Program-made: the position numbers and the translations under genes
The notes under the pieces: generated by a model
What the model was told of the DNA's origin: nothing
The model's input: only the letters and a program-made list of their open reading frames with translations
Database searches by the model: none
In this document: positions 12,296 through 33,895 of the stretch, in pieces
How positions within the stretch are numbered: the first letter of the stretch is position 1
How the letters are laid out: every line of letters begins with the position of its first letter
DNA from: Clostridiaceae bacterium
Lineage (GTDB): Bacteria; Bacillota; Clostridia; DSM-8532
DNA length: 33,895 nt
NCBI GenBank assembly: GCA_012518025.1
Contig: JAAYTP010000135.1
Coordinates: 1 to 33,895 of the forward strand
Direction: 5' to 3'

Positions 12296-12346
12296 ATAGA
12301 TATCCATAATTCATTGATCTGTTATGATTTCACGGGGGAATATCCA

Positions 12347-14086
12347 ATGCGAAGAAGACTGGTCAATCTGTTGTCCATCTATCTGGTGGTGGCCTTATGC
12401 CTGATACTGGGTTATTATTTCTGGCTCAAGGCTAAAGAGCCCAACTCACAGGTTGTCGGCTTCTTTGACGACATCCCCGCCACGCGTCTTGTCATCGGTT
12501 CAGAAGTGATTGTGGAGAGAGAGCCTCCCCTGATCAGGGAAGGCAGAGTCCTTCTGCCCTTTGGTACCGTGAAAAAGCACATCGATCCCTATATCTGGTG
12601 GGATGAAGCCCAGCAAAAAGTGATTGTCACCACAAAGGATCGGGTAATCCGGATGGAAACCGGAAAGCTTGATGCGCTGATCAATGAGGAGCCCATGGAG
12701 CTTCAGTTCCCTCCTGTGGAAGAGGATGGAACCCTGTATATCCCCATGGATTTTCTAAAGGATTTTTACCGGGTCAACATAAGATACATGCCTGAACAGG
12801 ATGTGGTGATCGTGGATCACAGAAACAGCATCTATCGGATGGGAGAGCCTTTAAGCGCCGAGGCGGTCATCAGAACAGGCATGAGCATAAAAGAGCCCAT
12901 TGTCAGGGAGTACGATGAGGCAGAACTGGGCTCCCAGGCTGCTGAGCTGATAATCTTTGAGGAGTATGAATCCTGGTACAGGGTGCGTACATATGAGGGG
13001 ATCTTCGGATACATACCAAAGGCCGATGTGGTGGTGCGGGATATCATCATAACAGAGCGGGATACCGATTCTAACAGTACCTCTTCACCCCTTCCCGCAG
13101 GCAAGATCAACCTGGTATGGGATATGACCTACAGTAAGAAGTACATGGAGTTCAGCAGGGAAAAATCCCCCGGCATTGATATTTGGTCCCCCACCTGGTT
13201 TGAGATTATAGACCGGGAGGGAACCATCAAAAACCGCGCCAACCCTGAGTATGTGGAATGGGCTCATAATAACGGCTGGCAGGTATGGGGGCTTGTGGCC
13301 AACGCATTTAATGATATTGAAGGAACCAGTATAATACTCAACAGCACCGAGCTAAGGCATAATGTCATCAGACAGATACTGGCCTATGCAGCGCTTTATG
13401 ATCTCGACGGAATAAATCTTGATTTTGAGAATATCTATCTTAAGGACAAGGATGCTTACACCCAGTTTGTTCGGGAAATCTCGCCCCTTCTCAGAGAACA
13501 GGGGCTTGTGGTTTCAGTGGCCGTAGGCGTGCCAGGAGGCAGTGAGACATGGTCCCTTTCCCATGACAGGCGTGCCCTGGGTGAGACTGTGGATTTTGTT
13601 TGTCTCATGACCTATGACCAGAACTGGCCTGCACCCGGTTCCAGCGCTGAACTTCAATGGGTGGAGGATCGTCTCGTGGCTACCCTGGAGGAGGTAACTC
13701 CGGACAGGCTGCTTTTGGGTATACCGCTCTACACCAGGCTATGGGCTGAGGAAGAAGTGGACGGCAAGATGAAAACCTCATATCTTGCGGCACTGACCAT
13801 AGACGGTGCCTGGAAAAGGGTTGAGGAGAACGATGCTACGGTTGTCTGGAACCCGTCTCAGGGTCAGTACCATGCCACCTACGAGAAGGACGGGAGAACC
13901 ATAAAGATGTGGATAGAGGACGCTGATGCAGTCAATGCCAAGACCTCGCTGGTACATAAGTATAACCTGGCGGGATCCTGCGTCTGGGCTGCCAATTTTG
14001 CAAATGAAAGCGTGTGGCCCGTTTTTGAAAGGAACCTAAAAAAGATCTCCCACTATGAAGAATGGAAGGCTATTGTTGTTGATTAG
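12347..14086 (+). CDS. Membrane-anchored GH18 glycoside hydrolase with Cu-amine-oxidase-N and SH3-like domains
   Basis: The 579-residue protein has an N-terminal anchor (about residues 5-27, LLSIYLVVALCLILGYYFWL). A stalk resembling the copper-amine-oxidase N-terminal domain follows (about 45-155). Next is an SH3-like segment with YRVRTYEGIFGYIPKADVVV (about 160-235), then a GH18 catalytic barrel (about 255-565). The catalytic motif reads D354-G-I-N-L-D359-F-E361, with E361 the proton donor; the second Asp of DxxDxDxE is Asn. CLMTYDQNW and GIPLYTRLW are further GH18 blocks. Related Bacillus proteins (YaaH/SleL, YdhD, YvbX) act on spore or wall N-acetylglucosamine glycans. I start at 12347 because GGGGGAA is 6 nt upstream; an ATG 11 codons earlier lacks a site. 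Confidence 0.88.
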   Translation: MRRRLVNLLSIYLVVALCLILGYYFWLKAKEPNSQVVGFFDDIPATRLVIGSEVIVEREPPLIREGRVLLPFGTVKKHIDPYIWWDEAQQKVIVTTKDRVIRMETGKLDALINEEPMELQFPPVEEDGTLYIPMDFLKDFYRVNIRYMPEQDVVIVDHRNSIYRMGEPLSAEAVIRTGMSIKEPIVREYDEAELGSQAAELIIFEEYESWYRVRTYEGIFGYIPKADVVVRDIIITERDTDSNSTSSPLPAGKINLVWDMTYSKKYMEFSREKSPGIDIWSPTWFEIIDREGTIKNRANPEYVEWAHNNGWQVWGLVANAFNDIEGTSIILNSTELRHNVIRQILAYAALYDLDGINLDFENIYLKDKDAYTQFVREISPLLREQGLVVSVAVGVPGGSETWSLSHDRRALGETVDFVCLMTYDQNWPAPGSSAELQWVEDRLVATLEEVTPDRLLLGIPLYTRLWAEEEVDGKMKTSYLAALTIDGAWKRVEENDATVVWNPSQGQYHATYEKDGRTIKMWIEDADAVNAKTSLVHKYNLAGSCVWAANFANESVWPVFERNLKKISHYEEWKAIVVD

Positions 14087-15145: not shown

Positions 15146-15535
15146 ATGGGGATTCTGGCAGGTATCGACATTGTGGAGATTGATCGTATAGAGCGCGCCA
15201 TCGACAGAGGCGGCGATGGCTTTATCCGCCGTATTTACACCCCCCGTGAGATTGAGTACTGCGAATCGAAAGGCAAGGCCAGAACCAGCAGCTACGCAGT
15301 TCGGTTCTCCGCCAAGGAGGCAGTATCCAAGGCGCTGGGTACAGGTATTTCCCAGGGCATCTCATTTCAGGATATCGAAGTGGTAAATAACTCCAATGGC
15401 AAGCCCCGGGTGGTTCTCCACGGGGAGGCCGAGAAACGTTTTCATATGCTTTTCGGAATATCCTTGGATGTCAGCCTGACCCATTGCAGGGACTATGCAG
15501 CGGCATACGCAGTGATTCAGACAGAGAAAGGATGA
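15146..15535 (+). CDS. acpS: Holo-[acyl-carrier-protein] synthase
   Basis: This enzyme transfers 4'-phosphopantetheine from CoA to the serine of acyl carrier protein, activating fatty acid synthesis. The 129-residue protein has family length. Mg-binding D8 lies in GIDIVEIDRI and E58 in RFSAKEAVSKALGTG, both hallmarks. The C-terminal block VSLTHCRDYAAAYAV (about residues 110-124) completes the fold. The ATG at 15146 follows CTGGAGGTG. The sbcD-like gene begins 5 bp after its stop, so the two genes and sbcC likely form one operon. Confidence 0.96.
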   Translation: MGILAGIDIVEIDRIERAIDRGGDGFIRRIYTPREIEYCESKGKARTSSYAVRFSAKEAVSKALGTGISQGISFQDIEVVNNSNGKPRVVLHGEAEKRFHMLFGISLDVSLTHCRDYAAAYAVIQTEKG

Positions 15536-15540
15536 TGTCC

Positions 15541-16737
15541 ATGGTCACGGACAGGATCAGATTTCTCCATTGTGCGGATATTCATTTGGACAGCCCCTTT
15601 GGAGGCCGCAGCCTTAAGAACTATACCGAAATGCGCCGGATTGATGTGTGGAAAACTTTTGAGTCCATCATCAGGCTGGCGGAGGATGAACGGATGGATT
15701 TCATTCTGGTCTGCGGTGACCTTTACGAGCATGACTATGCATCAAGAGCCACCATCCAAAGGGTGGGCAGCCTCTTTGAACGGCTGACAATTCCTGTTGT
15801 GGTCCTACCGGGGAATCATGATCCCTATGTGGCCAACTCCTGGTATAAAACATGGAACTGGCCTGGTAATGTGGTTATTCTGAATCATGAAAAACCCTCG
15901 GTCATGCTTGACGGTGTGAACACTTTTATTCATGGCGTAGGCTTTTCAGCCTTCAGGCAGGATACCCCCGACCTTTCAATGATACCCCGGCCTTTTAGTA
16001 ACTGTTTTAATATCTTCATGCTTCACGGTACATTGGATATGAACTTCAGCAGCCGTCCATTTAACCCGGTTTCATCCGGGGAATTGGCCGATTTGGGCTA
16101 TGACTATTACGCCCTGGGGCATTTCCACAACCGTAAAACCGATTTCAGGCTTAAAAATGCCGCAAACCCGGGAAGCCCGGAACCTCTTGGATTCGATGAG
16201 ACCGGGGATCACGGAGTTTTTTTGGTGACCATGGAAAGGGATGAGAATGGTAAAAAGGCGTTGGATATCCGGGAAATCAATCTGGCTCAGAAGAGGTATG
16301 TATGGTTGGACCTTGATATGGCTGCCGTCAGAAGTCAGGAGGAAGCCAGCGCAAGGCTGGGGGAATTGCTCTGCAGCCTCGACCCAGGCCAGGATCTTCC
16401 CAGGGTGATACTAAAGGGGCGAACCCCGCTGGCGGTGGATTGCGAGGCGTTGAAAAAGCCCTGGACGGAGGACTTTCCCTGGCTCCAGATCCTTGATGAA
16501 ACCCGGGATTGCTACGACTATGGAGCCATATCCAGTGAGCAGAACCTTAAAGGAGCTTTTACGCGGGAGATGCTTCAGCGATTAAAAGACTGTGAAGACA
16601 ATGGCGACGAAGAGCAGGCCAAGATCCTCAGCGCTGCTCTGGATCTTGGCATTGAAGCCCTTGAAAAGGGTCGCATAGACGCTCGTTTTGACGGTGGCCT
16701 GTTTAAGGGATCCGACCGGGAAAGGCGGCTGATATGA
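15541..16737 (+). CDS. SbcD/YhaO-like metallophosphoesterase (DNA repair exonuclease subunit)
   Basis: The 398-residue protein is a calcineurin-like phosphoesterase of the Mre11/SbcD type, which with its ATPase partner cuts hairpins and protein-blocked DNA ends. The metal-binding motifs are in order: CADIHLDSP (about residues 10-18), VCGDLYEHD (about 57), PGNHDPY (near 92), MLHGTLD (about 160) and LGHFHNRK (about 195). Start choice: ATGs at 15532, 15535 and 15541 are in frame. GAGAAAGG is 10 nt from 15541 but almost touches the first two, so 15541 is preferred. It overlaps the downstream ATPase gene by 4 bp (ATGA). The length and partner fit the YhaO/YhaN branch rather than classical SbcD/SbcC. 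Confidence 0.92.
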   Translation: MVTDRIRFLHCADIHLDSPFGGRSLKNYTEMRRIDVWKTFESIIRLAEDERMDFILVCGDLYEHDYASRATIQRVGSLFERLTIPVVVLPGNHDPYVANSWYKTWNWPGNVVILNHEKPSVMLDGVNTFIHGVGFSAFRQDTPDLSMIPRPFSNCFNIFMLHGTLDMNFSSRPFNPVSSGELADLGYDYYALGHFHNRKTDFRLKNAANPGSPEPLGFDETGDHGVFLVTMERDENGKKALDIREINLAQKRYVWLDLDMAAVRSQEEASARLGELLCSLDPGQDLPRVILKGRTPLAVDCEALKKPWTEDFPWLQILDETRDCYDYGAISSEQNLKGAFTREMLQRLKDCEDNGDEEQAKILSAALDLGIEALEKGRIDARFDGGLFKGSDRERRLI

Positions 16738-19142
16738 GAATAGGGTTGCTTGACATAAAGGGGTTTGGTAAATTCAGCGATAAACGCATCCGGCCTTCCG
16801 GTGGATTCAACCTGGTTACAGGCTCCAATGAGTCCGGAAAATCCACGTTGGTCGATTTTGTGATGGCAATGCTCTATGGTCTTGGAGGAGGCAAGCGTTC
16901 AAAGAAGGCCTCTATAAGTCACGGAAAGGCATATAAGCCCTGGAACGGGAGCCAGTTTGCGGGTGTACTGGAATATGTACTCGATGATGGATCTGCATAC
17001 AGGGTGGATCGCAATTTTGATAAAGGGCTGACCCATATACACGATGGTATGTCGAGGGACATCACCTCCGGTTTTGCGCTCAGCAGGGATACCGGTCCCA
17101 GATTTGCGGAGGAGCACCTGGGACTCTCTGAGGAGGTATTTGTAAGGAGCGCTCAGATACGTCAGATGCAAACGGCCATGGATCCTGACGGAGCCCGCAT
17201 AATCATGGAGAAGCTGACCAACCTTTCTACCTCCGGGAGTGAGGATCTGTCCCTCAGTCGGGCTCTTGAGGCTTTGGACAATGCCCTTCTGGAAAAGGTT
17301 GGCACGGGAAGATCCACCACAAGACCTCTGGACAGGGTGGAGGCGCGTCTTAAGGAACTGGAGAGCATCAGAGCAGAAATGCTGGAGCAGCATGAGAGAT
17401 ATCTGGATGCATGGTCCATGCTAAAGAGGGAGAAAGAAAGGCTTAAGGATCTGAGGCAAAAACATGATGAACTGAAGATGAAACATAATGCCAATCTGAA
17501 GAACCATCTCAGTGATCTTGCCAGGGAATGCCATGAGTTGGACAGGTCTTTGGAGGAGATGAAAGCCGAACTGGTCCATCTGGAAAAGAAGCTGGAATGC
17601 TCGGGCGTTTTCAGTGAGATGACCGAAAAGGCTATGGAAACTCTTAATGATGTCTGGTATGAGTATAAGGAAATCTATAGACAACTGGAAGAATGGGAAG
17701 CAAGCATTAAAACGCTGGAACAGCAAAACGCTGACCTGAGCCTGAGGCTGGAAAGGCTTCAGCCTGTGAAGGAAAAGGTGGACAGGATAGACAGGTTCTT
17801 AAAGGATCAGGAAAAAGAAGCTGCGGCGACTTCATACCAAGGCCAAAAGCGCGGTGGAGGCATTCCCTTATTTGTACCTGTGATACTTCTAATACTAGCA
17901 GCCGCTATTATGGCTTTGCCTGTATTACTGAACCGGGAAATGGAGATGTCCATGCTTACAGCTGCAGGGGTGTCTGCCCTGGCTGGTATCTTGACAGCCC
18001 TTTTCCGGGGCACGAAAAAGAAAACCGTTTCCATAAGTCCAGCAGATTCGCAGCTTGCATTCCTGCATGAGGTGGGCTTTTCGGGACTCAATGACTACCT
18101 TTCGCAAAAAGAGGAGCTTCAGGGCGTCCTGTCGGGATCAGAGACTTGCAGGAGCGAGCTGGCGGGAGCCCGGATAAAGAAAGATTATCTGTTGGAGAAG
18201 AAGGATGCCCTGCATAAGACCCTTGCATCATGCCTGGACGGGTTCGCATCAGCATCAACTGATCCGGGAATTATGGAAGGTGTTATGGAGGGCTTCAGGG
18301 CAGGATTTAGTCAGTTCAGAGAGAATGACAGGCGTGCCAATGATCTGCGTCAGCGGATTGAAGCCATTGAGGAAAAAAGAAGGTTGATTCTCAGGGAGGC
18401 ATCAGCATTAGCCAAAAAGGAAATAGCCTCTGCCGCCCAGCTGGATGCTGCTGCCTCAGTGATGTCTGGCGGGAGTTCCGAACCTGAATCTGCCATGGGT
18501 CAGGAAGATGTGTCGGAGCATCAGATCCGGGAGACAGAAGAGGAGATTAAAAACTGTGAGATCCGTATTGGCAGTCTGAAAGCACGGCTGGAAAGAGCAC
18601 CCTCCCAGGGGGATCTTGCAGATGTTGAGGAAGAGGTCAGCCAGCTTCAGGAGAAAAAACGCCACTTGGAACTGGCCGGCAGGAGCATCCGGGCCGCCCG
18701 GGATGTATTGCTGGAGGTGGGTTCCCGCCTCCAGATGAATTATACTGCCATGCTTAACGATGAGATGGGAAGGTTCATTTCCGTGATCACCGGTGGCAGG
18801 TATCAGAGCATAAAAACCGATCCGGAAGGACGGTTGTATCTTGAGGTTCCTGAATGTGAGGAGCTTGTGCCGGTGGCCAGGCTCAGTTCCGGAACCATAG
18901 ATCAGGTCTATTTATCCATGCGTCTTGCGGCTCTTGCCCTGATGGAAAGAGGGAAGGAAACCATTCCCCTGTTCTTGGATGAGCCCTTCCTTCAGTATGA
19001 CGAGGAGAGGACTCTTATGGCTTTTAAGCTGCTGCGGGAAGCCTCAGCCAACAGGCAGGTGTTCTTCATGACCAGCCACAGCCGCGAGGTTGAACTGGCC
19101 AAAGAGATATGGGGCGACGGGCTGAATCTTATTGAGCTATAG
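16734..19142 (+). CDS. SbcC/YhaN-like SMC-type ATPase with central membrane hairpin
   Basis: The 802-residue protein is a Rad50/SbcC-type ATPase partner of the upstream nuclease. Walker A is GSNESGKST (G30-T38). A long coiled coil occupies about residues 200-375. The ABC signature LSSGTIDQVYLSMRLAAL lies near 717, and Walker B IPLFLDEPFLQYDEERT near 745, with a D-loop and an H-loop-like TSHSRE near 785. Two hydrophobic segments (about 377-400 and 407-424) sit where the Rad50 zinc hook would be. No CxxC hook is seen. YhaN-like proteins are known to carry such central membrane segments. It overlaps the nuclease gene by 4 bp. Its 3' end is followed by two repeat elements. Confidence 0.9.
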   Translation: MRIGLLDIKGFGKFSDKRIRPSGGFNLVTGSNESGKSTLVDFVMAMLYGLGGGKRSKKASISHGKAYKPWNGSQFAGVLEYVLDDGSAYRVDRNFDKGLTHIHDGMSRDITSGFALSRDTGPRFAEEHLGLSEEVFVRSAQIRQMQTAMDPDGARIIMEKLTNLSTSGSEDLSLSRALEALDNALLEKVGTGRSTTRPLDRVEARLKELESIRAEMLEQHERYLDAWSMLKREKERLKDLRQKHDELKMKHNANLKNHLSDLARECHELDRSLEEMKAELVHLEKKLECSGVFSEMTEKAMETLNDVWYEYKEIYRQLEEWEASIKTLEQQNADLSLRLERLQPVKEKVDRIDRFLKDQEKEAAATSYQGQKRGGGIPLFVPVILLILAAAIMALPVLLNREMEMSMLTAAGVSALAGILTALFRGTKKKTVSISPADSQLAFLHEVGFSGLNDYLSQKEELQGVLSGSETCRSELAGARIKKDYLLEKKDALHKTLASCLDGFASASTDPGIMEGVMEGFRAGFSQFRENDRRANDLRQRIEAIEEKRRLILREASALAKKEIASAAQLDAAASVMSGGSSEPESAMGQEDVSEHQIRETEEEIKNCEIRIGSLKARLERAPSQGDLADVEEEVSQLQEKKRHLELAGRSIRAARDVLLEVGSRLQMNYTAMLNDEMGRFISVITGGRYQSIKTDPEGRLYLEVPECEELVPVARLSSGTIDQVYLSMRLAALALMERGKETIPLFLDEPFLQYDEERTLMAFKLLREASANRQVFFMTSHSREVELAKEIWGDGLNLIEL

Positions 19143-23603: not shown

Positions 23604-26600
23604 ATGAGAAGAAGAGTTTTTCACAGGTTCATCTCCTGGTTTATGGTATTCATATTTGCTTTATCGATTATGTCTTCTGTCAATCTGACCCGTTCTAATG
23701 CGCAGGAAGTGCAAACAGGAAGGATCAGTGTAAATTACAACAAAGATACAAGGAAGCATGAAATCTCATTCCCTGTCGACGGAGAGCCGGAACAGGTGAC
23801 TGTGGGCTGGCATGACGATACGGGCGCACCTCAGTCAGAGGATGATTTTCCTTATAGTTATGCAAACGGAAACATCATGCTTGAGTTTTCTGAACAAACA
23901 TTTAAAAAAGACCATATCTATGATTTGCAGGTTAACGTAAAGGTCAGAGGAAGCGCTGAACCTGTAACCGCTAAGTTCTTCTATTTATTCGGCATAACCT
24001 TTAAAGGGGAATCCTTCAATGTTATGACCGATGGCACCAATAATATAGACATGGGACGGCTCATTGAGGGTCAGTCCATAGTGAGTGGTCGTAATCCCAG
24101 AATAAAGCTTACATGGAATGTTCCCACCATATATGTGGATAGGGAAGGAGTTAAAGCATTAACGGAATTGGTTGATGAGGTTATCCTTGGAGGTGTTTTC
24201 GGAGCTGACATCGATGAGGTTCGTTTCCATATTGATATGAATGTGGGCAGGGGCAGCAATAATTCATATTCCCGCGCAATGGTTTACAACGATGATTGGT
24301 CCTGTTTTAGCGGGAATACACAGGAGACGCTGAATGAACCGATTATCTATAACACCACAAAACATGAAGTCTCTGTTATTCTGGACAGGAGTAATGGTAT
24401 TGAGCCGGGAACCGAATATGAGAATACACGGATAAGGTTTGATTTTAAAAAAAGGGGAGTTGGCGAACCAATAGCGCTGGACCGTATTGGACTTAAGACC
24501 GCCAGCGCTTCGTTTTCAGTTAAGAATGAAGACATAGACACTACCGGCATTGATTTTTCAAATCCATCTTCCATCTATACACCCATAGAGTTCAGGATTA
24601 AAAAAGTTGATGAAGACATGATCATGGTAGAATTCGACGAGATCAGAAACGGAAACTATCCCGAACTGTTCTACCAGATACAATATGACACAAACCCCAA
24701 CCTGATATATCATGATATCCATAAGTGGCCAAGGATAAAATGGATTGACCCCTACGCTGACAAGGTGGCGGAGATAGTACCCTTCGGACCGGGCGATTAT
24801 ATAGCGGTGGTGTTCTTTGCAAACAAGGACTCGAACCGTCCCCTAGGTGCATCTTTGAACCTGAGATCCAGTTTTCTTGATGAGATCTCCATTGATGCGC
24901 CCCCACCTCTGCCAAAGAACATTGAAGCCTCGGTAGGGGATACCAGAAAGAAAAATGTAACGGTTGTTGATGTGGGCGGCGCAGAATATGGAACCGAGCT
25001 TCTCTTGAGTGATCTGAATATTTCATTTGATGCGCCCCTGGCCTGGAAACAACTTCGCGATGATGGAAAATGGGAAGCTTTCCAGCAGGCTCCGTACGGC
25101 GGATATGAGGACACCTCAGTGGATAAGGAGGATATAGAGTATACCTTCCATGTTCTGCTGAGCTCCTATCGCCCGGATGCAGCTATTGAGGACGGAGAAA
25201 GAAGAGAGATCGGTCAGGAAAATATCCAGATCTATATGCCGGTAAAGCAAAAAAGGGTGCTGGTTATCGGAAAGAAAAACCTGACATGGGATCCCAGAAA
25301 CCCGGATCGGTTGATTGTGGATATGGATTCGGGATCAGATGGAAATCAGTTCATTCCCGGAGATAGGCTGTTCTGGGATTATACTCTAGATTCCGACATT
25401 TATTTTGAAAACGATGCGGATCTTAACGAAGATGGCAGGGATGGAGATTATCCTGACTTTTTGGTACCCAACACCATTTACTATATGCAGATCTTCACAT
25501 CCCGTTATAAGGATAATGGGGATATCAGATGGGCAGAAGGTGTCTCGGATGATTTGAGGATCAGGCTGTCATACCTCTCACCTGTTGTGAGCTTTACAAC
25601 ACTGCCTTTGGATAAAAAGGCCGTCCCCGTACCCAGCATAAAAGATATAGAGGAAAAGCTTGACATTGACGAAGAAAATGAAACCATTGACCTTGCAGGA
25701 ATCTGGGTTAAAATGGACCGAGTGCTGACCAAAACCGACTGGCAGCGCTATACAAGCATGCTGGAAGACAGGATACTGGAATATGTGATCCATATCAGCC
25801 AGAGTCCTTCCTTTGAAGATGAATATATAACAAGAGAATCCTTCAATTACGATGCTCCGGGCTTTGCCGAGACAGATCCGGTACCTGTATTCATTGACAG
25901 CCAGGACGCGGGTTTAAAGCCCAACACGACTTATTATTTCAAGGTGATGGTAAACCTGTATGCACCATATGAGGATTCTGAAGACAAACCTGCAGACCCA
26001 AATCCTAATGGCAAGCTGGTTGCGTGGTCCGATTTTTCTCCCATCAAGGCTTTTACCACACCCAAGATTGCGCCTAAGGATATTGACGATATCACGAGAA
26101 AACCCAGTGCGCCTACCGACTTTGCCATTGCAAAAGACGAGAATGGTGAAGAGAGGATAACCGATGCCCGGGCGGATTTGACATGGAGGCACAGGGAAAA
26201 TGATGTGATATACGAATTGATCTGTACAGTGAATGGCGATACCGAAAACTTTGCTGATGATGAATACAATAAGTGGCTTATTGAAAGCTATGAAAGCATT
26301 GCTTCCGGCGGTGTAATAGTAATTGATCCTGAAAACCCCAGGCTTGAGGCATACGGCTTCAGCATTGATGACAACAATCAGATCATAATGCCCATCGGAG
26401 AAGGTTTCCTCAGGCCAAATAATATTTATTTCTTCAGCCTGCGTACTGTACGGAAGGATGGAAAAGGAGAGCCGAGCGACTGGGTGACGCTTCCTGTTAC
26501 CACCAGAATGGTAAAGGCGCCAGAATACTTTGAGGTGGTAAGAGATCTGCAAGTGGGCTTTAATGTAGAATGTGACACCCGCGGAACCGATGCAGATTCC

Positions 26601-28679
26601 ATGGAAGTGTACATGAAAAAGCGCGGACAGCCTGACTCTGCATACACAAAGCTACTCCGCTCCCAATACACAGTGGTGAAGGACGGCACCACATACTATT
26701 TCAGGGTATATAACCTGGAACCCGATACCTTGTATCACTTCAGGCTGTATAACAAAGCGGGAGAGGAATGGTACGACTACGATGAAGACGGCGGTTACTG
26801 GGGTGACAGCCGGGGAGAACCGATCCCGGTCAAAACAAGGGATACCTTCAGCGAGATTGAGGTTCGATGGGTGGGCGAGGAGCTCTACGATTATTTCCTG
26901 GAGCTTCGCAGCGAACATGAAACAGTCTATAAGGAACTGACCGAGCTCGTACACTATGGGTATGAGCTGCCCGATGGCAGCCAAATGGTGTTTTATAGGG
27001 AAAAGACCAATGCATTTGTGAGGGAAGGAGCCGTCAACAAATATGTCTATTATGCCCTCATTTCCAGAAGACCTGTTCAGGATGAAAGAGGTCTTGAAAG
27101 CCACAGGCCTCTTGAAACCAATACCCTCTATTATGTAAGGCTGTGGGCTAAGAACAAGGCAGAGGACAAATACGGAGAATCCCTTCGGGTAGGCCCTGTC
27201 AGTGTCCGTACTGACTTTAGCCAGGATGATTATGACAAGGACAGAAAAAAAGACGATTTGGAAGATGTATACAACATGGAGGCCGATCAGCTCCTTCAGA
27301 AGCTGTATTGGTTGGTTGACTCAAGAAGCACTTCTAAAGTACGGGCGTTGGTAAAGGGTGATATGGTATCGGGTCTTTTACAGGCATCTCCAGGTATGAC
27401 TGTAACCATTGACTTTTCAGGTGAACTGCCCAATGCTGAAAGCTACGAGATTCTGGTGCCCCAAAGAGTACTGGAAACCATTGAGAGCAACGATTCGCGA
27501 CTGAACCTTAAGCTGTCCGGTACTGAACTGACCATAAACAGGGGGAGTATTGACATAAGCGATCTGAAACTGCAGGGACAAGGCGGCGGAGCAAAGGAGG
27601 CCATGCTGTGCCTGCGTGTCCAGCGGGTATCAAAATCCAGTGAGCCCCTCCCACAGGGCACAAAGCTGGTTTCCAGGGTATATGATTTGAGCATACATGC
27701 GGTAGGCTCTAAGTATACCTATGCCGAGCTTGGTACCATAATTTATGATATACTGGTGAATCCTGAAGCTTCAGGTCCTTTCAACTATGGGATTTTTGAC
27801 AGGGAAATGGCCAGGGTGCTGGGTCAACTGGAGAGGTACAGCTACCGCTCCCATACCGAACTAAAGGATATGATAAAAGAAATCATGAAGAGTATAGAGA
27901 CTGAACTGTCCTGGTATCTGAAGGATATATTGGATGGAGGCAGCGGCCGGTCTGCCGGTATAGTTGTCAACAAATCCATACATGCTTTTCCGGGAAGGGT
28001 GGGACTCAGAATCGAATATCAGCCTGAGGCCGGGCTCATCCTTCCCTATGTCAATTATAACTCAAAAGGCTGGGGCGAGGTTTCCGGAGCCAAGGGCTAT
28101 GTCATGCAGTATGTTCTGTTCCGGGCAGATGCTCCCGGAGAGTATGCGGTATTGGCCAGGTCCAGCGTTTCGGTAAGCCCCGGAAGCTCCCATGAAGGCG
28201 TCATCGGTGCTTTAGGGAGCAAGTATGATCTTACAAAGGTCTTCGGAAATACCACCATCTATCCTGGTGATCCCATGACGGGGCAGCAGGCGGTTATGCT
28301 CTATGCAGTCATCACCGGGAGGGAGAATGAACTGACCGGGCTGACACCCAATCAAAAGGTTATTGCCCTTGGAATCGGAGATGTTCTGGGAGTGAAGGAG
28401 CTGACGGGCTATATGGAGAACCAAAGCTCGGTGTCCTTAGCGGTCATGCTCTACTGTGAGAAGTCAGGAATACCCCTGTCCATGCTGCAGCCTTCAAAAA
28501 CCATTGTAATATCCAATGCGGCTCAGATCAGCACCAGATTGTACCGTTATGTTGTTCTCGGGATAGATCTGGGGCTTGCGCCTTTAAAGAATTATGAGTT
28601 TGATGCTACGGGCAGGAGCACCATAGGACAGGTTCTGGATATGATATCAAAGGTGCTGGAAGAGGTTGGCGAAATATAG
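23604..28679 (+). CDS. Giant secreted protein with fibronectin-III-like repeats and SLH-like C terminus (paralogue 1)
   Basis: A 1691-residue protein not attributable to a named gene. It has an N-terminal signal peptide (MRRRVFHRFISWF, then a hydrophobic run ending near residue 33 at SNAQ). Most of the body is beta-rich, with FN3-like units ending in a recurring L-x-P-N-T-x-Y-Y motif near residues 620, 771, 935, 1038 and 1170. Next comes a linker SQDDYD and a beta module (about 1260-1325) also found in the next protein. The last 150 residues hold degenerate SLH-like repeats (YPGDPMTGQQAVMLY near 1550). It is rich in acidic residues. The ATG at 23604 follows GAGGAGAGG; a GTG 10 codons earlier is less likely. 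It is probably a cell-surface or spore-surface adhesin or scaffold; substrate unknown. Confidence 0.85.
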   Translation: MRRRVFHRFISWFMVFIFALSIMSSVNLTRSNAQEVQTGRISVNYNKDTRKHEISFPVDGEPEQVTVGWHDDTGAPQSEDDFPYSYANGNIMLEFSEQTFKKDHIYDLQVNVKVRGSAEPVTAKFFYLFGITFKGESFNVMTDGTNNIDMGRLIEGQSIVSGRNPRIKLTWNVPTIYVDREGVKALTELVDEVILGGVFGADIDEVRFHIDMNVGRGSNNSYSRAMVYNDDWSCFSGNTQETLNEPIIYNTTKHEVSVILDRSNGIEPGTEYENTRIRFDFKKRGVGEPIALDRIGLKTASASFSVKNEDIDTTGIDFSNPSSIYTPIEFRIKKVDEDMIMVEFDEIRNGNYPELFYQIQYDTNPNLIYHDIHKWPRIKWIDPYADKVAEIVPFGPGDYIAVVFFANKDSNRPLGASLNLRSSFLDEISIDAPPPLPKNIEASVGDTRKKNVTVVDVGGAEYGTELLLSDLNISFDAPLAWKQLRDDGKWEAFQQAPYGGYEDTSVDKEDIEYTFHVLLSSYRPDAAIEDGERREIGQENIQIYMPVKQKRVLVIGKKNLTWDPRNPDRLIVDMDSGSDGNQFIPGDRLFWDYTLDSDIYFENDADLNEDGRDGDYPDFLVPNTIYYMQIFTSRYKDNGDIRWAEGVSDDLRIRLSYLSPVVSFTTLPLDKKAVPVPSIKDIEEKLDIDEENETIDLAGIWVKMDRVLTKTDWQRYTSMLEDRILEYVIHISQSPSFEDEYITRESFNYDAPGFAETDPVPVFIDSQDAGLKPNTTYYFKVMVNLYAPYEDSEDKPADPNPNGKLVAWSDFSPIKAFTTPKIAPKDIDDITRKPSAPTDFAIAKDENGEERITDARADLTWRHRENDVIYELICTVNGDTENFADDEYNKWLIESYESIASGGVIVIDPENPRLEAYGFSIDDNNQIIMPIGEGFLRPNNIYFFSLRTVRKDGKGEPSDWVTLPVTTRMVKAPEYFEVVRDLQVGFNVECDTRGTDADSMEVYMKKRGQPDSAYTKLLRSQYTVVKDGTTYYFRVYNLEPDTLYHFRLYNKAGEEWYDYDEDGGYWGDSRGEPIPVKTRDTFSEIEVRWVGEELYDYFLELRSEHETVYKELTELVHYGYELPDGSQMVFYREKTNAFVREGAVNKYVYYALISRRPVQDERGLESHRPLETNTLYYVRLWAKNKAEDKYGESLRVGPVSVRTDFSQDDYDKDRKKDDLEDVYNMEADQLLQKLYWLVDSRSTSKVRALVKGDMVSGLLQASPGMTVTIDFSGELPNAESYEILVPQRVLETIESNDSRLNLKLSGTELTINRGSIDISDLKLQGQGGGAKEAMLCLRVQRVSKSSEPLPQGTKLVSRVYDLSIHAVGSKYTYAELGTIIYDILVNPEASGPFNYGIFDREMARVLGQLERYSYRSHTELKDMIKEIMKSIETELSWYLKDILDGGSGRSAGIVVNKSIHAFPGRVGLRIEYQPEAGLILPYVNYNSKGWGEVSGAKGYVMQYVLFRADAPGEYAVLARSSVSVSPGSSHEGVIGALGSKYDLTKVFGNTTIYPGDPMTGQQAVMLYAVITGRENELTGLTPNQKVIALGIGDVLGVKELTGYMENQSSVSLAVMLYCEKSGIPLSMLQPSKTIVISNAAQISTRLYRYVVLGIDLGLAPLKNYEFDATGRSTIGQVLDMISKVLEEVGEI

Positions 28680-28730
28680 ATGGCTTCCAGATGGTTGCAT
28701 TTACCGAATATGGAATGGAGCTGAATGCGT

Positions 28731-31700
28731 ATGAGAAAAAGATCAGTACTTAATAAGCATATTTCACGATTCATGGTTTTGATCATGCTGCTGACCTTAT
28801 ATACCGGGAATGCCGCCTTTGCTGATACTGCCATCGTAGATTCCCCCAAGAACTACAGGCTGGATGATATAGGCTATGATGAAAATGGAGAATGGTACGC
28901 AGATCTTAGCTGGCAGCACGATGGATTTCCTTCAGGTTCCAGTGAAGAGCAGATAACAGCCAGCTTCCATGAGATAGAATATGGAACCGGGAGGCGGATC
29001 CCAAACGCGATACAGGTTACTATGCCCGGGAGTCAAAGGAGTTTGGGCATCAGTGATGGCTTCGACTCAGAGACCAATCCGAACGGCCTGAAGCCCGGCC
29101 ATATATATGAATCCAATTTAACAGCGTCCTGTATGATTCCAAACACAGGCTACCGCATTTCATCCCAAAGATCTAACATGATTAAATTCCTCACCGGTGT
29201 TCGTACTGAAGTGAAACTTGTGCCCGGTACCAACCACATCAGGATTATATGGGATGATGTATGGGATGCGGACGGGCGAATTAATTATGAGATCCTGATT
29301 TCCGACATCAGCTCGGATGCGATTGGAAGCATCTCCCACACAGAGCGTATCATAGGTTCGAGGATTGGTGAGCCTGGATCTCCCCCCGTTACCGTTAACG
29401 CCACCGAGGGGAAACTGGAGTTCACCTACACGGGCGCCCACCCAGGCAGAAGGTATTCCATCAAGGTTGTACCCATTCCGGACAGCAACACAGTGGTAAC
29501 GCCCTCTGAGAGGATACCCGTGATCTCTGTAAACACCAGCATATTGCTCAGAGCATCCCGAATCGGCTATACACCGGAAGGCGATACCATATGGAATCTT
29601 TCATGGGATCCCATCGTCCTTGACGAGGATGAGTTCAGGGTGGACAGGATCGACTATATCCTTTACCGGTATAGTCACGAGACCGATGATAATCCTGCTC
29701 AATACATATTGCCCAATACAAACAGCTACCGGATTATTATTCCCAAGGATGATAAAACTCCTTACAGTTTCAGTGTTGTGGCCTACGCACGTTCTGCCGA
29801 CAGCAGCCAGGTTGATATTTATTTCGACTCAAGTACCAGGGTGGAGCTCAAGGAGATGATTCCCCACAGGCCAGAAGCGCCTGAAATTGTTGATAGTTTT
29901 TATCCCGATGCGGAGCTCTCCTATGATGAGAATCTGACTCCCCACAGCGCAACGGTAATGTGGAAGGTTCCCTATAACGGCGAGGGAATTGGTGACGATT
30001 ATATCGACAGGGATATCGTATATGATATCTATCTTGTGGACGACATCCGTTATGTGGAGTCGCCTCCGGAAGAGTTTAAGATCGCTTCTGATATCAGTAT
30101 GGGTGGAGCCAATGAAATTAAGGCAAAAAACCCGGTTCCTGAACGTTCCATACTTGGTTACAGATACGATTTAACTGGCCTTAACTCCCACTCCATCTAT
30201 TATTTTGTGATACGGGCCAAGAAGTATTATCCGGTGGAAGAGCGAAGGGGAGGATTGGTGGTATACACTCCCAAGGAGTTTGTTTCCGACTTATCGGTCA
30301 AGGTTATTATCACCAAGCCGGACACCGGTGCCGATAGAATTCCTGAAGCGCCTTCGGCACCGCCTTTTGGGGTGGATCAGGAAAGCATTACCCTGACCAG
30401 TGCTACTCTTCATCTGAAGAAGAGTTGGGAGGCCTATTTCAAAGATAATCGCTGGATGGACATATCCATGTTTGACGGTGATGAAGAAGAATTCACCCGG
30501 CTGGAGAAGAAAACCATCAATTACGAGCCCGGCTGGATAGTGGTTCCCCATTTGATAAGGTACCAATATGCCGTGGAGCTTATTGGTGATCCCAATATCA
30601 GTTACAGCGATTTGAGTGGAATACTAAAGGATTTTGCAACAACCCAGGCGGGTGTTCCTGTTCCGGACATACCTGAGCATGAGGATCAGACCTTTGAATT
30701 TGATATCACCGGGCTGATGGAGAATACAGCCTATGTTGTATGGGTGACCATTGAAAACCATGACGGGATCCCTTCAAATCCTTCAGACCCCATCATCATA
30801 AATACAAAACCACCCGAGGTCATCAACCCAATCACCCCAACTGCTCCTGAGAATCTGCATTGGATAGTTGCAGACAGCTTTGTAGACCTGTTTTGGGACT
30901 TCATTCCCGGAATGAACTATGAAATACGCTGCGGAACCGAAGAGGATCTGGAAGCTGCCACTATCAGCAGAACAGTTACTTATGAGGAGTTGGCGGAAAC
31001 CTCCTACTACAGACTGGATGGCCTTTTGCCGGATACGCAATACTTTATCTGGATTAAGACTATAAATCCTGCGACAAACAAGGAATCAGTCTTCTCAAAT
31101 CCTGTAATCGTGAGAACGGAGGCCTACAGCCCGCCGCCACCGCCCACCGGATTCGGTGTGAGCGCCGCTCCTGGCGGAGTTACCGAGAACAGCATCACCT
31201 ATGTATGGGAAGCCCTGCCGGGATATTCCTACATCCTTGAGTTTTCGGATAACAGTAGCTTTGATAGTGCCCGGCGTTTTGAGGTGAATGGAGATACCTA
31301 TACAGTTTCTTCCCTTATCTCCAACAGGCGCTATTATGCAAGGCTTTATGCCCGGGACAACGCAACCACACTCATATCGGAGCCTACCAGAACCATCATG
31401 GTGGTTACCAGCAAGAGCAGGGATGATTATGATTCGGGCTTCGATTTGGATGATGTGCCCACCGGTGATGTTCTGGTGATATCACCCAGGGTTGTTGATG
31501 GTATATGGACGGCAAGCTCCACCGGGATAAATGCCCACAGAATGGCGGAGCAGATAAGGGATATGCAGGGCTATGTGGTAAGGATTGATTTGTCCAGGCC
31601 GCCCGGAAGGGTTCATACAGTCCGCCTTGAGTTGGGGGCTGTATTGATCGATGCGCTATCGGAGCTTAAAAAGGAGCTGTATATAGAGCTTCCGTCAAAC

Positions 31701-32597
31701 AATATACTCATCCGTCCGCAGACCCTCCAGACCGACGAATATTTCAGAATGAAGGGTGTGGACACCAATTTCACCCTGAGACTCGATGCAGTATCGCCCG
31801 CCACAGGGTTTACGCCGCCATCCAATCTGAGCCTTGTAGCTCCGGTCACCGAATTCAGGATAGGCCCGGCATCCACCGGACGCTCCTTTGCCAGCCTGGT
31901 GCGGCCCATCCGTGTTGATTTTGTGGTTCAGAACCTGACAAGCTATATGGCAGGTGAGATAGGAGCCTATCTCTATGACAGCAGGGAAAGATCCTGGGTC
32001 GAGCAAAAAACAGTCACAGACTATGCTAATGGCAAGGTATCTGGCGAAATGACAAAACCAGGTGCTCTGGCTGCTGCCACTCGCAATGCAGCCCCGGTGG
32101 GCTCTGTCCCCCGGGACGTGGCCGACAGTTTAAAAGCAATTCAGGCTGTTTATCGCCTAAATTCCCTTAATAATAAGAACTTCCGCCATACCGATCCGGT
32201 GATGCAGGCAGATATTATAAAGCTGCTTCTGGATATTGCGGGTGCCTCTTATGATGATGGTAATTTCCTTACCCAGGCTGTCAGAAGCGGAATGATCAAG
32301 GATGCGCAGGATATCACCGGAGGTTTTGCCCAGAAGGATCAGGCAATCAGTTTTTTGGTTTCCTATTACCGGTTCAGAACAAGGCTTCCTGCCAATCCGG
32401 AGAATCCATCGGCCTGGTCTCATTATCGGAATCTGAACAGGGTATCGCCCAAAGCCCTGGATGATGTAAAATTTGCCATTGAAAACGGTGTGGTTCAGGA
32501 AAATCAAACCAATTATCTTAACCCGGATGAAACCATAACCTATGGCGAATTATTCAAAATGCTTGAAAGGCTTTTGATTATTTGCGGCGATTTGTAG
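28731..32597 (+). CDS. Giant secreted protein with fibronectin-III-like repeats and SLH-like C terminus (paralogue 2)
   Basis: This 1288-residue protein is the tandem paralogue of the preceding one. The signal peptide (RKRSVLNKHISRFMVLIMLL, cleavage probably after AFA near residue 29) resembles its neighbour's (MRRRVFHRFISWFMVF). FN3-like units carry motifs such as LKPGHIYESNL, LNSHSIYYFVIR, LMENTAYVVWVT, LLPDTQYFIWIK and LISNRRYYARLY (near residues 120, 483, 662, 765 and 862). The linker SRDDYD and the beta module (about 950-1005) match paralogue 1. The C terminus (about 1127-1288) has three SLH-like units ending LNPDETITYGELFKMLERLL. The start is ATG 28731 (GGAG 10 nt upstream); ATG 28725 is possible. 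It is in an operon with paralogue 1 (about 50 bp). Confidence 0.85.
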   Translation: MRKRSVLNKHISRFMVLIMLLTLYTGNAAFADTAIVDSPKNYRLDDIGYDENGEWYADLSWQHDGFPSGSSEEQITASFHEIEYGTGRRIPNAIQVTMPGSQRSLGISDGFDSETNPNGLKPGHIYESNLTASCMIPNTGYRISSQRSNMIKFLTGVRTEVKLVPGTNHIRIIWDDVWDADGRINYEILISDISSDAIGSISHTERIIGSRIGEPGSPPVTVNATEGKLEFTYTGAHPGRRYSIKVVPIPDSNTVVTPSERIPVISVNTSILLRASRIGYTPEGDTIWNLSWDPIVLDEDEFRVDRIDYILYRYSHETDDNPAQYILPNTNSYRIIIPKDDKTPYSFSVVAYARSADSSQVDIYFDSSTRVELKEMIPHRPEAPEIVDSFYPDAELSYDENLTPHSATVMWKVPYNGEGIGDDYIDRDIVYDIYLVDDIRYVESPPEEFKIASDISMGGANEIKAKNPVPERSILGYRYDLTGLNSHSIYYFVIRAKKYYPVEERRGGLVVYTPKEFVSDLSVKVIITKPDTGADRIPEAPSAPPFGVDQESITLTSATLHLKKSWEAYFKDNRWMDISMFDGDEEEFTRLEKKTINYEPGWIVVPHLIRYQYAVELIGDPNISYSDLSGILKDFATTQAGVPVPDIPEHEDQTFEFDITGLMENTAYVVWVTIENHDGIPSNPSDPIIINTKPPEVINPITPTAPENLHWIVADSFVDLFWDFIPGMNYEIRCGTEEDLEAATISRTVTYEELAETSYYRLDGLLPDTQYFIWIKTINPATNKESVFSNPVIVRTEAYSPPPPPTGFGVSAAPGGVTENSITYVWEALPGYSYILEFSDNSSFDSARRFEVNGDTYTVSSLISNRRYYARLYARDNATTLISEPTRTIMVVTSKSRDDYDSGFDLDDVPTGDVLVISPRVVDGIWTASSTGINAHRMAEQIRDMQGYVVRIDLSRPPGRVHTVRLELGAVLIDALSELKKELYIELPSNNILIRPQTLQTDEYFRMKGVDTNFTLRLDAVSPATGFTPPSNLSLVAPVTEFRIGPASTGRSFASLVRPIRVDFVVQNLTSYMAGEIGAYLYDSRERSWVEQKTVTDYANGKVSGEMTKPGALAAATRNAAPVGSVPRDVADSLKAIQAVYRLNSLNNKNFRHTDPVMQADIIKLLLDIAGASYDDGNFLTQAVRSGMIKDAQDITGGFAQKDQAISFLVSYYRFRTRLPANPENPSAWSHYRNLNRVSPKALDDVKFAIENGVVQENQTNYLNPDETITYGELFKMLERLLIICGDL

Positions 32598-32695
32598 TGG
32601 CAAGTTGACATGCTTTTACCACGTATGAATTAATCACGCGATCGGATAATAAAAAGTGTGGCTGATCAATTGAACACCCGGCGTGTACATATTGG

Positions 32696-32719
32696 AAAGC
32701 CGGCCTACGAGCCGGCTTT
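32696..32719 (+). terminator. 9-bp perfect hairpin before murA
   Basis: AAAGCCGGC (32696-32704) pairs with GCCGGCTTT (32711-32719) around CTACGA. It is GC-rich and ends in TTT, so it may terminate transcripts from the surface-protein genes in either direction. It ends only about 10 bp before the murA ribosome-binding region, so it could also be in the murA leader. Otherwise, the 32598-32738 gap shows only a TTGACA at 32605 with no matching -10. Confidence 0.5.
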
Positions 32720-32738
32720 CAGAATGGAAGGTAGAGAT

Positions 32739-33895
32739 ATGGGAGCATTCTTGATTAAGGGCGGCAAGCCACTTTCCGGGACAGTTCAGATCAGCAGTTC
32801 AAAAAACGCAATACTTCCGATAATTTCAGCCTGCCTGCTGACGGCAGAAGAATGTATCATCAAGAATATTCCTGGGCTTGACGATGTTTCGGTCATGTGT
32901 GAGCTGATCTCCAGTCTGGGCGCCAGGGTTGAAGCCAATATCAGGGAAAGGGAGCTGTATGTCAGCACCCCGGAACTTACCGGTCATACTGCGCCCTATG
33001 ATCTGGTGAGCAGGATGCGTGCCTCATTTCTGGTCTTAGGGCCATTGCTTACACGCGCTGGAAAGGCAAAGGTGGCACTTCCCGGGGGATGCCCCATCGG
33101 CACCAGACCTGTGGATCTGCATGTAAAAGGCTTTGAGGCCATGGATGCCCAGATCGAATATGGCAATGGCTATATTGAAGCAAGGGCAAGAACCGGCAGG
33201 CTCAGGGGTTCCAGGGTTTATCTGGACTTTCCCAGTGTGGGAGCAACAGAAAACCTGTTGATCGGAGCTGTTTTGGCTGAGGGCAGCACCTCCATTGAAA
33301 ATGCGGCATCGGAGCCGGAAATCGTTGATCTGGCTGATTTTCTCAACAAGATGGGAGCCAGGATCAAGGGTGCGGGAACTGATACCATCACCATTGAAGG
33401 GGTAGATCGTGTTCACGGTGCTGAGCATGCGATCATGCCCGACAGGATTGAGGCAGGAACTCTGATGACGGCTGCCGCTATAACTGGTGGAGATGTAACC
33501 CTTAAAAATGTTGTGCCCGAGCATCTGAAGCCTGTTACCGCAAAGCTTTTGGAAGCGGGCATGGAGATCTCGGAAGGGCTTTCCGAGATCAGGGTAAAGG
33601 GTGTGCCAAGACCTGCTCCACTGAATATCAAGACCCACCCGTTTCCAGGATTCCCCACGGATATGCAGGCTCAGTTTCTGGCCCTGATGGCAAAGGCGCA
33701 GGGAACCAGCGTCATTGTTGAGACAATTTTTGAAAATCGTTTTATGCATGTGAACGAGCTAAGAAGAATGGGAGCACAAATACGTCTGGATGCCCGTACA
33801 GCTGTTATTGAAGGATGTGAAAGCCTTGAGGGCGCCCGGGTTCGGGCTACCGACCTGAGAGCCGGAGCAGCACTGATTCTGGCCGGGCTGGCGGC
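32739..33895 (+). CDS. murA: UDP-N-acetylglucosamine 1-carboxyvinyltransferase (3' end cut by window)
   Basis: MurA performs the first committed step of peptidoglycan synthesis, transferring enolpyruvate from PEP to UDP-GlcNAc. About 385 of roughly 420 residues are present and the frame stays open to the edge. The N-terminal block SSSKNAILP has the conserved K22-N23. The flexible loop block GGCPIGTRPVDLH holds C118, the residue fosfomycin alkylates. VGATENLLIGAVLAEG, MPDRIEAGTLMTAAAI and PGFPTDMQAQFLALM follow in order. The Cys predicts sensitivity to fosfomycin at the enzyme level. The ATG at 32739 is preceded by GGAAGGTAGAG. Clostridia often have two MurA paralogues; I cannot tell which this is. 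Confidence 0.95.
   Translation, partial: MGAFLIKGGKPLSGTVQISSSKNAILPIISACLLTAEECIIKNIPGLDDVSVMCELISSLGARVEANIRERELYVSTPELTGHTAPYDLVSRMRASFLVLGPLLTRAGKAKVALPGGCPIGTRPVDLHVKGFEAMDAQIEYGNGYIEARARTGRLRGSRVYLDFPSVGATENLLIGAVLAEGSTSIENAASEPEIVDLADFLNKMGARIKGAGTDTITIEGVDRVHGAEHAIMPDRIEAGTLMTAAAITGGDVTLKNVVPEHLKPVTAKLLEAGMEISEGLSEIRVKGVPRPAPLNIKTHPFPGFPTDMQAQFLALMAKAQGTSVIVETIFENRFMHVNELRRMGAQIRLDARTAVIEGCESLEGARVRATDLRAGAALILAGLA

Follow-up and report, generated by a model that had tools for sequence, protein, structure and literature searches.

Two adjacent genes, here called P1 and P2, encode very large multidomain proteins that are undescribed as a pair yet widely conserved in the class Clostridia, and we hold it probable, at roughly 0.6, that their products are co-inherited, wall-associated structural proteins of the Ig-array-plus-SLH kind whose anchoring has eroded in the lineage studied here. 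This architectural kind is known, and it is the loss of the SLH ligand residues that sets the present pair apart. The genes lie in a window of 33,895 nucleotides (the whole stretch of DNA that was analysed) from a Thermoclostridium-like genome, with P2 97% identical to that of the MAG DTU059 and ~68% identical to that of T. caenicola DSM 19027. The host is a heat-loving, plant-degrading type of clostridium.

Gene pair and domain architecture

The first-pass annotation had described two large, paralogous reading frames at 23604-32597; both were present, with murA directly downstream, and their features are as follows:

23604..28679, + strand: P1, 1691 aa, putatively exported FN3/Ig-array protein with a degenerate SLH-like tail (open reading frame, ribosome site, orthologues)
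23604..23705, + strand: putative P1 signal peptide, with RRR, a hydrophobic core and presumed cleavage between SNA and Q (sequence reading)
23706..27212, + strand: P1 all-beta domain array, residues ~35-1203 (AlphaFold2 model of residues 30-1190, FN3 matches)
27222..27236, + strand: P1 QDDYD linker (sequence reading; also kept in the orthologue alignment)
27291..28223, + strand, bounds approximate: P1 beta-module with a helical insertion (profile homology to the P2 beta-module)
28224..28676, + strand: P1 degenerate SLH-like tail, arginine-equivalents G, N and I (sequence alignment)
28725..32597, + strand: P2, 1290 aa, putatively exported FN3-array protein with an SLH-fold tail (open reading frame, orthologues)
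28827..31418, + strand: P2 FN3/Ig-like array, residues ~35-898, best FN3 domains at 537-898 (Pfam, AlphaFold2, structural match)
31422..31433, + strand: P2 DDYD linker (sequence and AlphaFold2; modelled with low confidence, as a flexible joint would be)
31497..32084, + strand: P2 beta-module, residues ~925-1120 (AlphaFold2; sequence relatives at SLH protease C-termini)
32085..32594, + strand: P2 SLH-fold trimer, residues ~1121-1290, arginine-equivalents Q1161, K1204 and Y1273 (match to 3pyw; motif table)
32694..32721, + strand: hairpin GAAAGCCGGC-N6-GCCGGCTTTC between P2 and murA (compensatory base change in T. caenicola, L090)
32740..33895, + strand: murA, running off the window, the conserved downstream neighbour (NCBIfam TIGR01072, E 2.8e-155)

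P1 starts at the ATG at 23604, preceded by a strong GAGGAGAGG ribosome site, and P2 starts at 28725, 45 bp past P1, the next alternative ATG (28731) giving 1288 aa. When the orthologue alignments of the two proteins were compared profile to profile, they matched at E 5e-38 over 743 columns with 18% identity, which points to ancient paralogues. The signal peptides, repeated FN3-type motifs, DDYD linker and C-terminal homology that had been noted earlier all proved real. Both N-termini read as basic and hydrophobic in the manner of signal peptides, and each protein has a single YD linker. The repeat motif, first given as L-x-P-N-T-x-Y-Y, occurs in both proteins in the tolerant form L-x-[PS]-[ND]-T-x-Y-Y (four times in P1 and twice in P2, far above the ~0.04 expected from shuffled sequence), whereas the strict PNTxYY is found only in P1 (twice). 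A repeat scan found no DNA-level tandem repeats in the P1/P2 region, and promoter and terminator scans did not score above shuffled sequences.

Pfam fn3 was clear in P2 (1.7e-19) and just below threshold in P1 (24.2 vs 25 bits). For SLH (PF00395), P2 scored 20.1 bits against a cut-off of 20.8, reaching 24.8 bits, above the cut-off, in a single-domain genome search; P1 had no match, and matches at E 0.01 or better were obtained in 9 of 18 P2 orthologues and 2 of 19 P1 orthologues, so that by Pfam score the membership of P2 in this family appears borderline. NCBIfam holds no named family for either protein; family and profile matching recovered no catalytic family in P1, P2 or their orthologues, and no aligned member matched a carbohydrate-binding or cohesin/dockerin family. 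Close homology to a characterised S-layer or enzyme family had been named as what would undo the initial interpretation, and the pair matches no characterised family and has no close solved homologue.

Modelling of the repeats, as the first-pass annotation had suggested, returned all-beta domain arrays. AlphaFold2 models of P2 residues 150-1290 (49 sequences) and P1 residues 30-1190 (46 sequences) were nearly all beta, with mean pLDDT of 83.6 and 82.7, respectively; their pTM was low (0.35 and 0.46), as expected for flexible strings, and the domain packing in these models is therefore untrustworthy. Foldseek lists for both models were dominated by FN3/Ig arrays. In a second-look structural alignment, P2 residues 537-898 matched FN3 domains at Z 12-14, and P1 matched them at Z ~9-10 within residues 434-1079, its first ~400 residues being poorly covered by the comparison. 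FN3 assignment is consequently supported for P2 by both predicted fold and sequence family, and for P1 by predicted structure with a subthreshold Pfam score. An enzyme hidden in the array was considered and rejected, since there was no family or profile match and nothing catalytic stood out in the Foldseek lists, a check that barely probed the regions outside the best-matching FN3 parts.

The borderline SLH score of P2 was settled by its model, because the predicted fold of residues 1121-1289 matches the B. anthracis Sap SLH trimer 3pyw (Z 16.1, rmsd 2.9 A, 160/178 residues aligned) as well as the ligand-bound Sap SLH structure 6bt4 (Z 15.9). The P2 tail is accordingly modelled as a three-lobed SLH trimer, and the earlier description of SLH-like tails holds for P2 by predicted fold, with a borderline Pfam score there and none in P1. 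In other clostridia, ordinary M6 and S8 proteases with SLH tails end in close relatives of the P2 beta-module and tail, and for this reason these parts of P1 and P2 are not novel.

Distribution and gene neighbourhood

Among 61 relatives, P2 matches were found in 34, counting a weak partial match at 3e-4 in G036, and P1 matches in 35. When 293 genomes of the class were searched with a profile, full or near-full P2 matches were recovered in ~34, distributed over families f1, f16, f22, f24, f26, f52, f61, f73 and f77; the 61-relative search added f2 and f4, bringing P1/P2 to at least 11 families. A scan of named genomes yielded 60 loci, including Acetivibrio, Ruminiclostridium, Pseudobacteroides, Herbivorax, Anaerobacterium and Thermoclostridium. 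Acetivibrio, Ruminiclostridium and Pseudobacteroides are known cellulose degraders. The search for orthologue spread that had been proposed at the outset thus overturned the idea of a lineage-specific system: with orthologous pairs in at least 11 families and ~60 named-species records, a lineage-specific orphan was rejected. What endures of the proposed undescribed surface system is a putatively exported, SLH-tailed FN3-array pair of no characterised family. The pair appears to be a long-lived wall component in a group of clostridia, well-known cellulose degraders among them.

P1 stands directly before P2 in 56 of the 57 loci that reach far enough, on the same strand, usually less than 200 bp apart and sometimes overlapping, and the length of the tandem pair is near-constant across families. 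One locus (L111, 9818-13738) is the only one with P2, P3, YwmB and murA that lacks an adjacent P1. Identity to T. caenicola is 56% for P1 and 68% for P2, compared with 88% for MurA and 77-88% for the neighbours, and this faster divergence would fit surface exposure. The distribution of P1/P2 tracks phylogeny, not sporulation.

Divergent to P1, the upstream genes encode a DnaC-like ATPase and a DnaB_2/DnaD-like protein, with YpeB and a cell-wall hydrolase farther up. Downstream, the coding start of murA lies at ~32740 rather than 32658, leaving a P2-murA gap of ~141 bp. The strong hairpin in this gap was found in all four genus members examined, just before the murA ribosome site and with no T-run after it, and no similar element was evident at its spot in other genera; it is possibly an attenuator, a processing site or an unusual terminator, and joint transcription of murA with P1-P2 seems plausible from this arrangement.

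The pair is nearly always found just upstream of murA, the next gene being P3, YwmB or MurA at most of the 60 named-species loci. Relatives not belonging to the Thermoclostridium family most commonly have the order P1-P2-P3-YwmB-murA, which we infer to be ancestral from its spread rather than from a tree; behind murA there often come spoIID, the gene for an M23 peptidase, a SpoIIID-like gene and mreB/mbl, and in some loci the atp genes lie ahead of the cluster. In these loci, the spoIID, spoIIID, atp and flagellar names come from sequence reading, and YwmB (DUF1779) and the P3 SLH triad from Pfam. P3 is a 288-residue SLH-triad protein; its first repeat has the arginine intact (TRAE or TRAS type), and its profile matches the C-terminus of P2 (E 9e-9). 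The 21 Thermoclostridium-family genomes searched yielded no full-length P3. A displaced P3 elsewhere in the host genome was rejected, only SLH-level matches being obtained (best 1.4e-10), compared with 6.8e-113 for the true P3 of an f2 genome. In the Thermoclostridium family YwmB is not at the locus either, and the pair has left the spoIID cluster, keeping only murA. The earlier remark that no polysaccharide genes lie nearby needs qualifying, as the polysaccharide-precursor gene galU is inside the window, but 22 kb away from the pair.

Several further observations concern the surroundings of the pair. A LysM-GH18 relative lies directly upstream of P1 in other family members, and the window itself encodes, at 12314-14086, a GH18 protein that has a copper amine oxidase N-terminal domain and matches SH3 weakly. 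Ruminiclostridium and one Hungateiclostridiaceae MAG (L126, L127, L129, L142, L145) encode an extra giant protein (~1500 aa or more) immediately upstream of P1, and a conserved, apparently cytoplasmic protein of ~583 aa occupies that place in some Acetivibrio and relatives (L146:3053-4807, L122:3214-4962). An Mre11/SbcD-like and Rad50/SbcC-like pair is encoded at 15484-19142, the second protein (802 aa) matching known families weakly. A viral-contig scan queried with the neighbouring germination protein YpeB, not with P1/P2, gave no match.

Erosion of the SLH ligand site

Pyruvylated ManNAc is bound in grooves of the SLH trimer, where the TRAE arginine contacts the pyruvate, and the contribution differs from repeat to repeat (PMC6081394). 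Neither window protein has this arginine in any of its three SLH repeats; the corresponding residues are Q, K and Y in P2 and G, N and I in P1. In relatives outside the Thermoclostridium family, repeat 3 carries R or K in 25 of the 25 P2 proteins having a residue there, and in nearly all P1 proteins; inside the family, only 4 of 22 P2 proteins keep R. In the Thermoclostridium lineage, therefore, the tails appear to have kept their fold (for P2, according to the predicted model), and the pyruvate-reader site has eroded. Arginine erosion and P3 loss in this lineage are coincident observations, and a cause-effect link between them is not demonstrated. Canonical SLH anchoring of the window proteins appears doubtful because the TRAE arginine is missing from every repeat of both.

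The host genome encodes a CsaB pyruvyltransferase (G000 C91:3445-4353; 266.6 bits vs a cut-off of 213.1) and other SLH proteins of ~500-810 aa; as both have been kept, the pyruvylated polymer ligand is probably made in this lineage. Among the 61 relatives, CsaB-type matches and SLH proteins accompany P1/P2 in every genome that has the pair, and the seven genomes without CsaB all lack the pair, a correlation confounded by phylogeny.

Interpretation and comparison with known systems

In the reading we prefer, P1 and P2 would be Sec-exported to the vegetative cell wall surface, each folding as a long FN3/Ig rod followed by a beta-module and a three-lobed SLH-type domain resting on the wall, and with N-terminal domains that either project outward or pack laterally. 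The small P3 of the ancestral operon, with its intact SLH triad, would have provided or reinforced the hold on the pyruvylated secondary wall polymer. With P3 lost and the arginines gone from the still folded tails, the Thermoclostridium proteins would probably be retained through weaker contacts with the polymer, through mutual packing or through packing against other proteins of the wall. The surface location, the scaffold or wall-layer role and this mode of tethering are suggested by sequence and predicted structure. Our literature search, by terms and by guessed A. thermocellus locus tags, found nothing on the pair, nor any experiment or proteome placing P1/P2 on the surface.

Another possibility is that ordinary anchoring persists and the tails bind pyruvylated wall polymer without TRAE. 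The SLH fold and CsaB are both kept, a lysine is retained at the site in P2 repeat 2, and in Paenibacillus alvei SpaA the repeats differ in their contribution, one natural repeat reading TVEE with no arginine (PMC6081394). Against this reading, which we regard as tentative and somewhat unlikely, stand the lack of the pyruvate-contacting arginine in every repeat of P1 and P2 in the window and the invariance of R or K at P2 repeat 3 outside the family. It is also unlikely that the SLH-fold tails of Thermoclostridium P1 and P2 have ceased to read pyruvylated wall polymer and have become a protein-protein assembly or alternative-ligand module, in a self-assembling wall sheath under joint control with MurA. 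Ig-like arrays joined to SLH domains are a common combination in published S-layer proteins (PMC10120038), and together with the conserved great length and the SLH fold this makes surface-layer formation by P1/P2 possible from architecture; that one or both are the principal lattice proteins of the lineage is nevertheless improbable, given the lost arginines, the other SLH proteins in the same genome, the position of the genes beside housekeeping wall and replication genes, and an average codon adaptation (0.776 and 0.772), a weak test of expression in a genome of such slight codon bias.

The cellulose-degrading habit of many carriers (Acetivibrio, Ruminiclostridium, Pseudobacteroides) and the frequent use of FN3 arrays as spacers would suit adhesins, or display proteins binding carbohydrate, for plant fibre. 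The lack of any carbohydrate-binding or cohesin/dockerin match in the aligned members, and the retention of the pair beside murA rather than cellulosome genes, make that role quite improbable. The first-pass annotation had also proposed a spore appendage, and a spore-stage role, in the exosporium or an appendage, can draw on the murA-spoIID-M23-spoIIID cluster in which the locus of relatives lies and on the fact that most carriers are spore formers. This proposal fared poorly: many spore formers lack the pair (e.g., G035, G036, G050 and G053, with SpoIVA present), G032 (93% complete) carries the pair together with P3 yet yielded no match to SpoIVA, and the Thermoclostridium pair sits outside the spoIID cluster with murA alone retained, all of which leaves it highly improbable.

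If P1 and P2 do build a wall layer, as the preferred reading of wall-associated structural proteins would allow, their place beside murA, and in relatives beside the spoIID cluster, would provide a genetic entry point for studying the coordination of surface layers with the synthesis of peptidoglycan. Moreover, the tails range naturally from those with the arginine, alongside P3, to those with neither the arginine nor P3, and this gradation offers a test of what an SLH fold is still capable of after its ligand site is lost.

Like the Ig-array S-layer proteins with SLH domains (B. anthracis Sap; the SbsB/SbsC types of G. stearothermophilus), P1 and P2 combine probable export with an Ig/FN3-type array and an SLH trimer. 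They differ in that their SLH domain is C-terminal and, in the window, has lost the ligand arginine, their array domains are FN3 rather than generic Ig, and they are two co-encoded paralogues beside murA, for which lattice formation is hypothetical. In common with the SpaA and SlhA trimers of P. alvei (PMC6081394), the predicted P2 tail has a fold that matches solved SLH structures, and the host has CsaB, but the arginine is present in two of three SpaA repeats and in none of three in P1 or P2. Clostridial M6 and S8 proteases with SLH tails (L158, L159, L161) share a homologous C-terminal beta-module and SLH tail, but have a catalytic domain and intact TRAE motifs, P1/P2 having FN3 arrays and no recognised enzyme. 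With the HPI S-layer of D. radiodurans (PMC10120038), which has no SLH and belongs to a diderm host, the likeness is at most a long Ig-like run at the cell surface.
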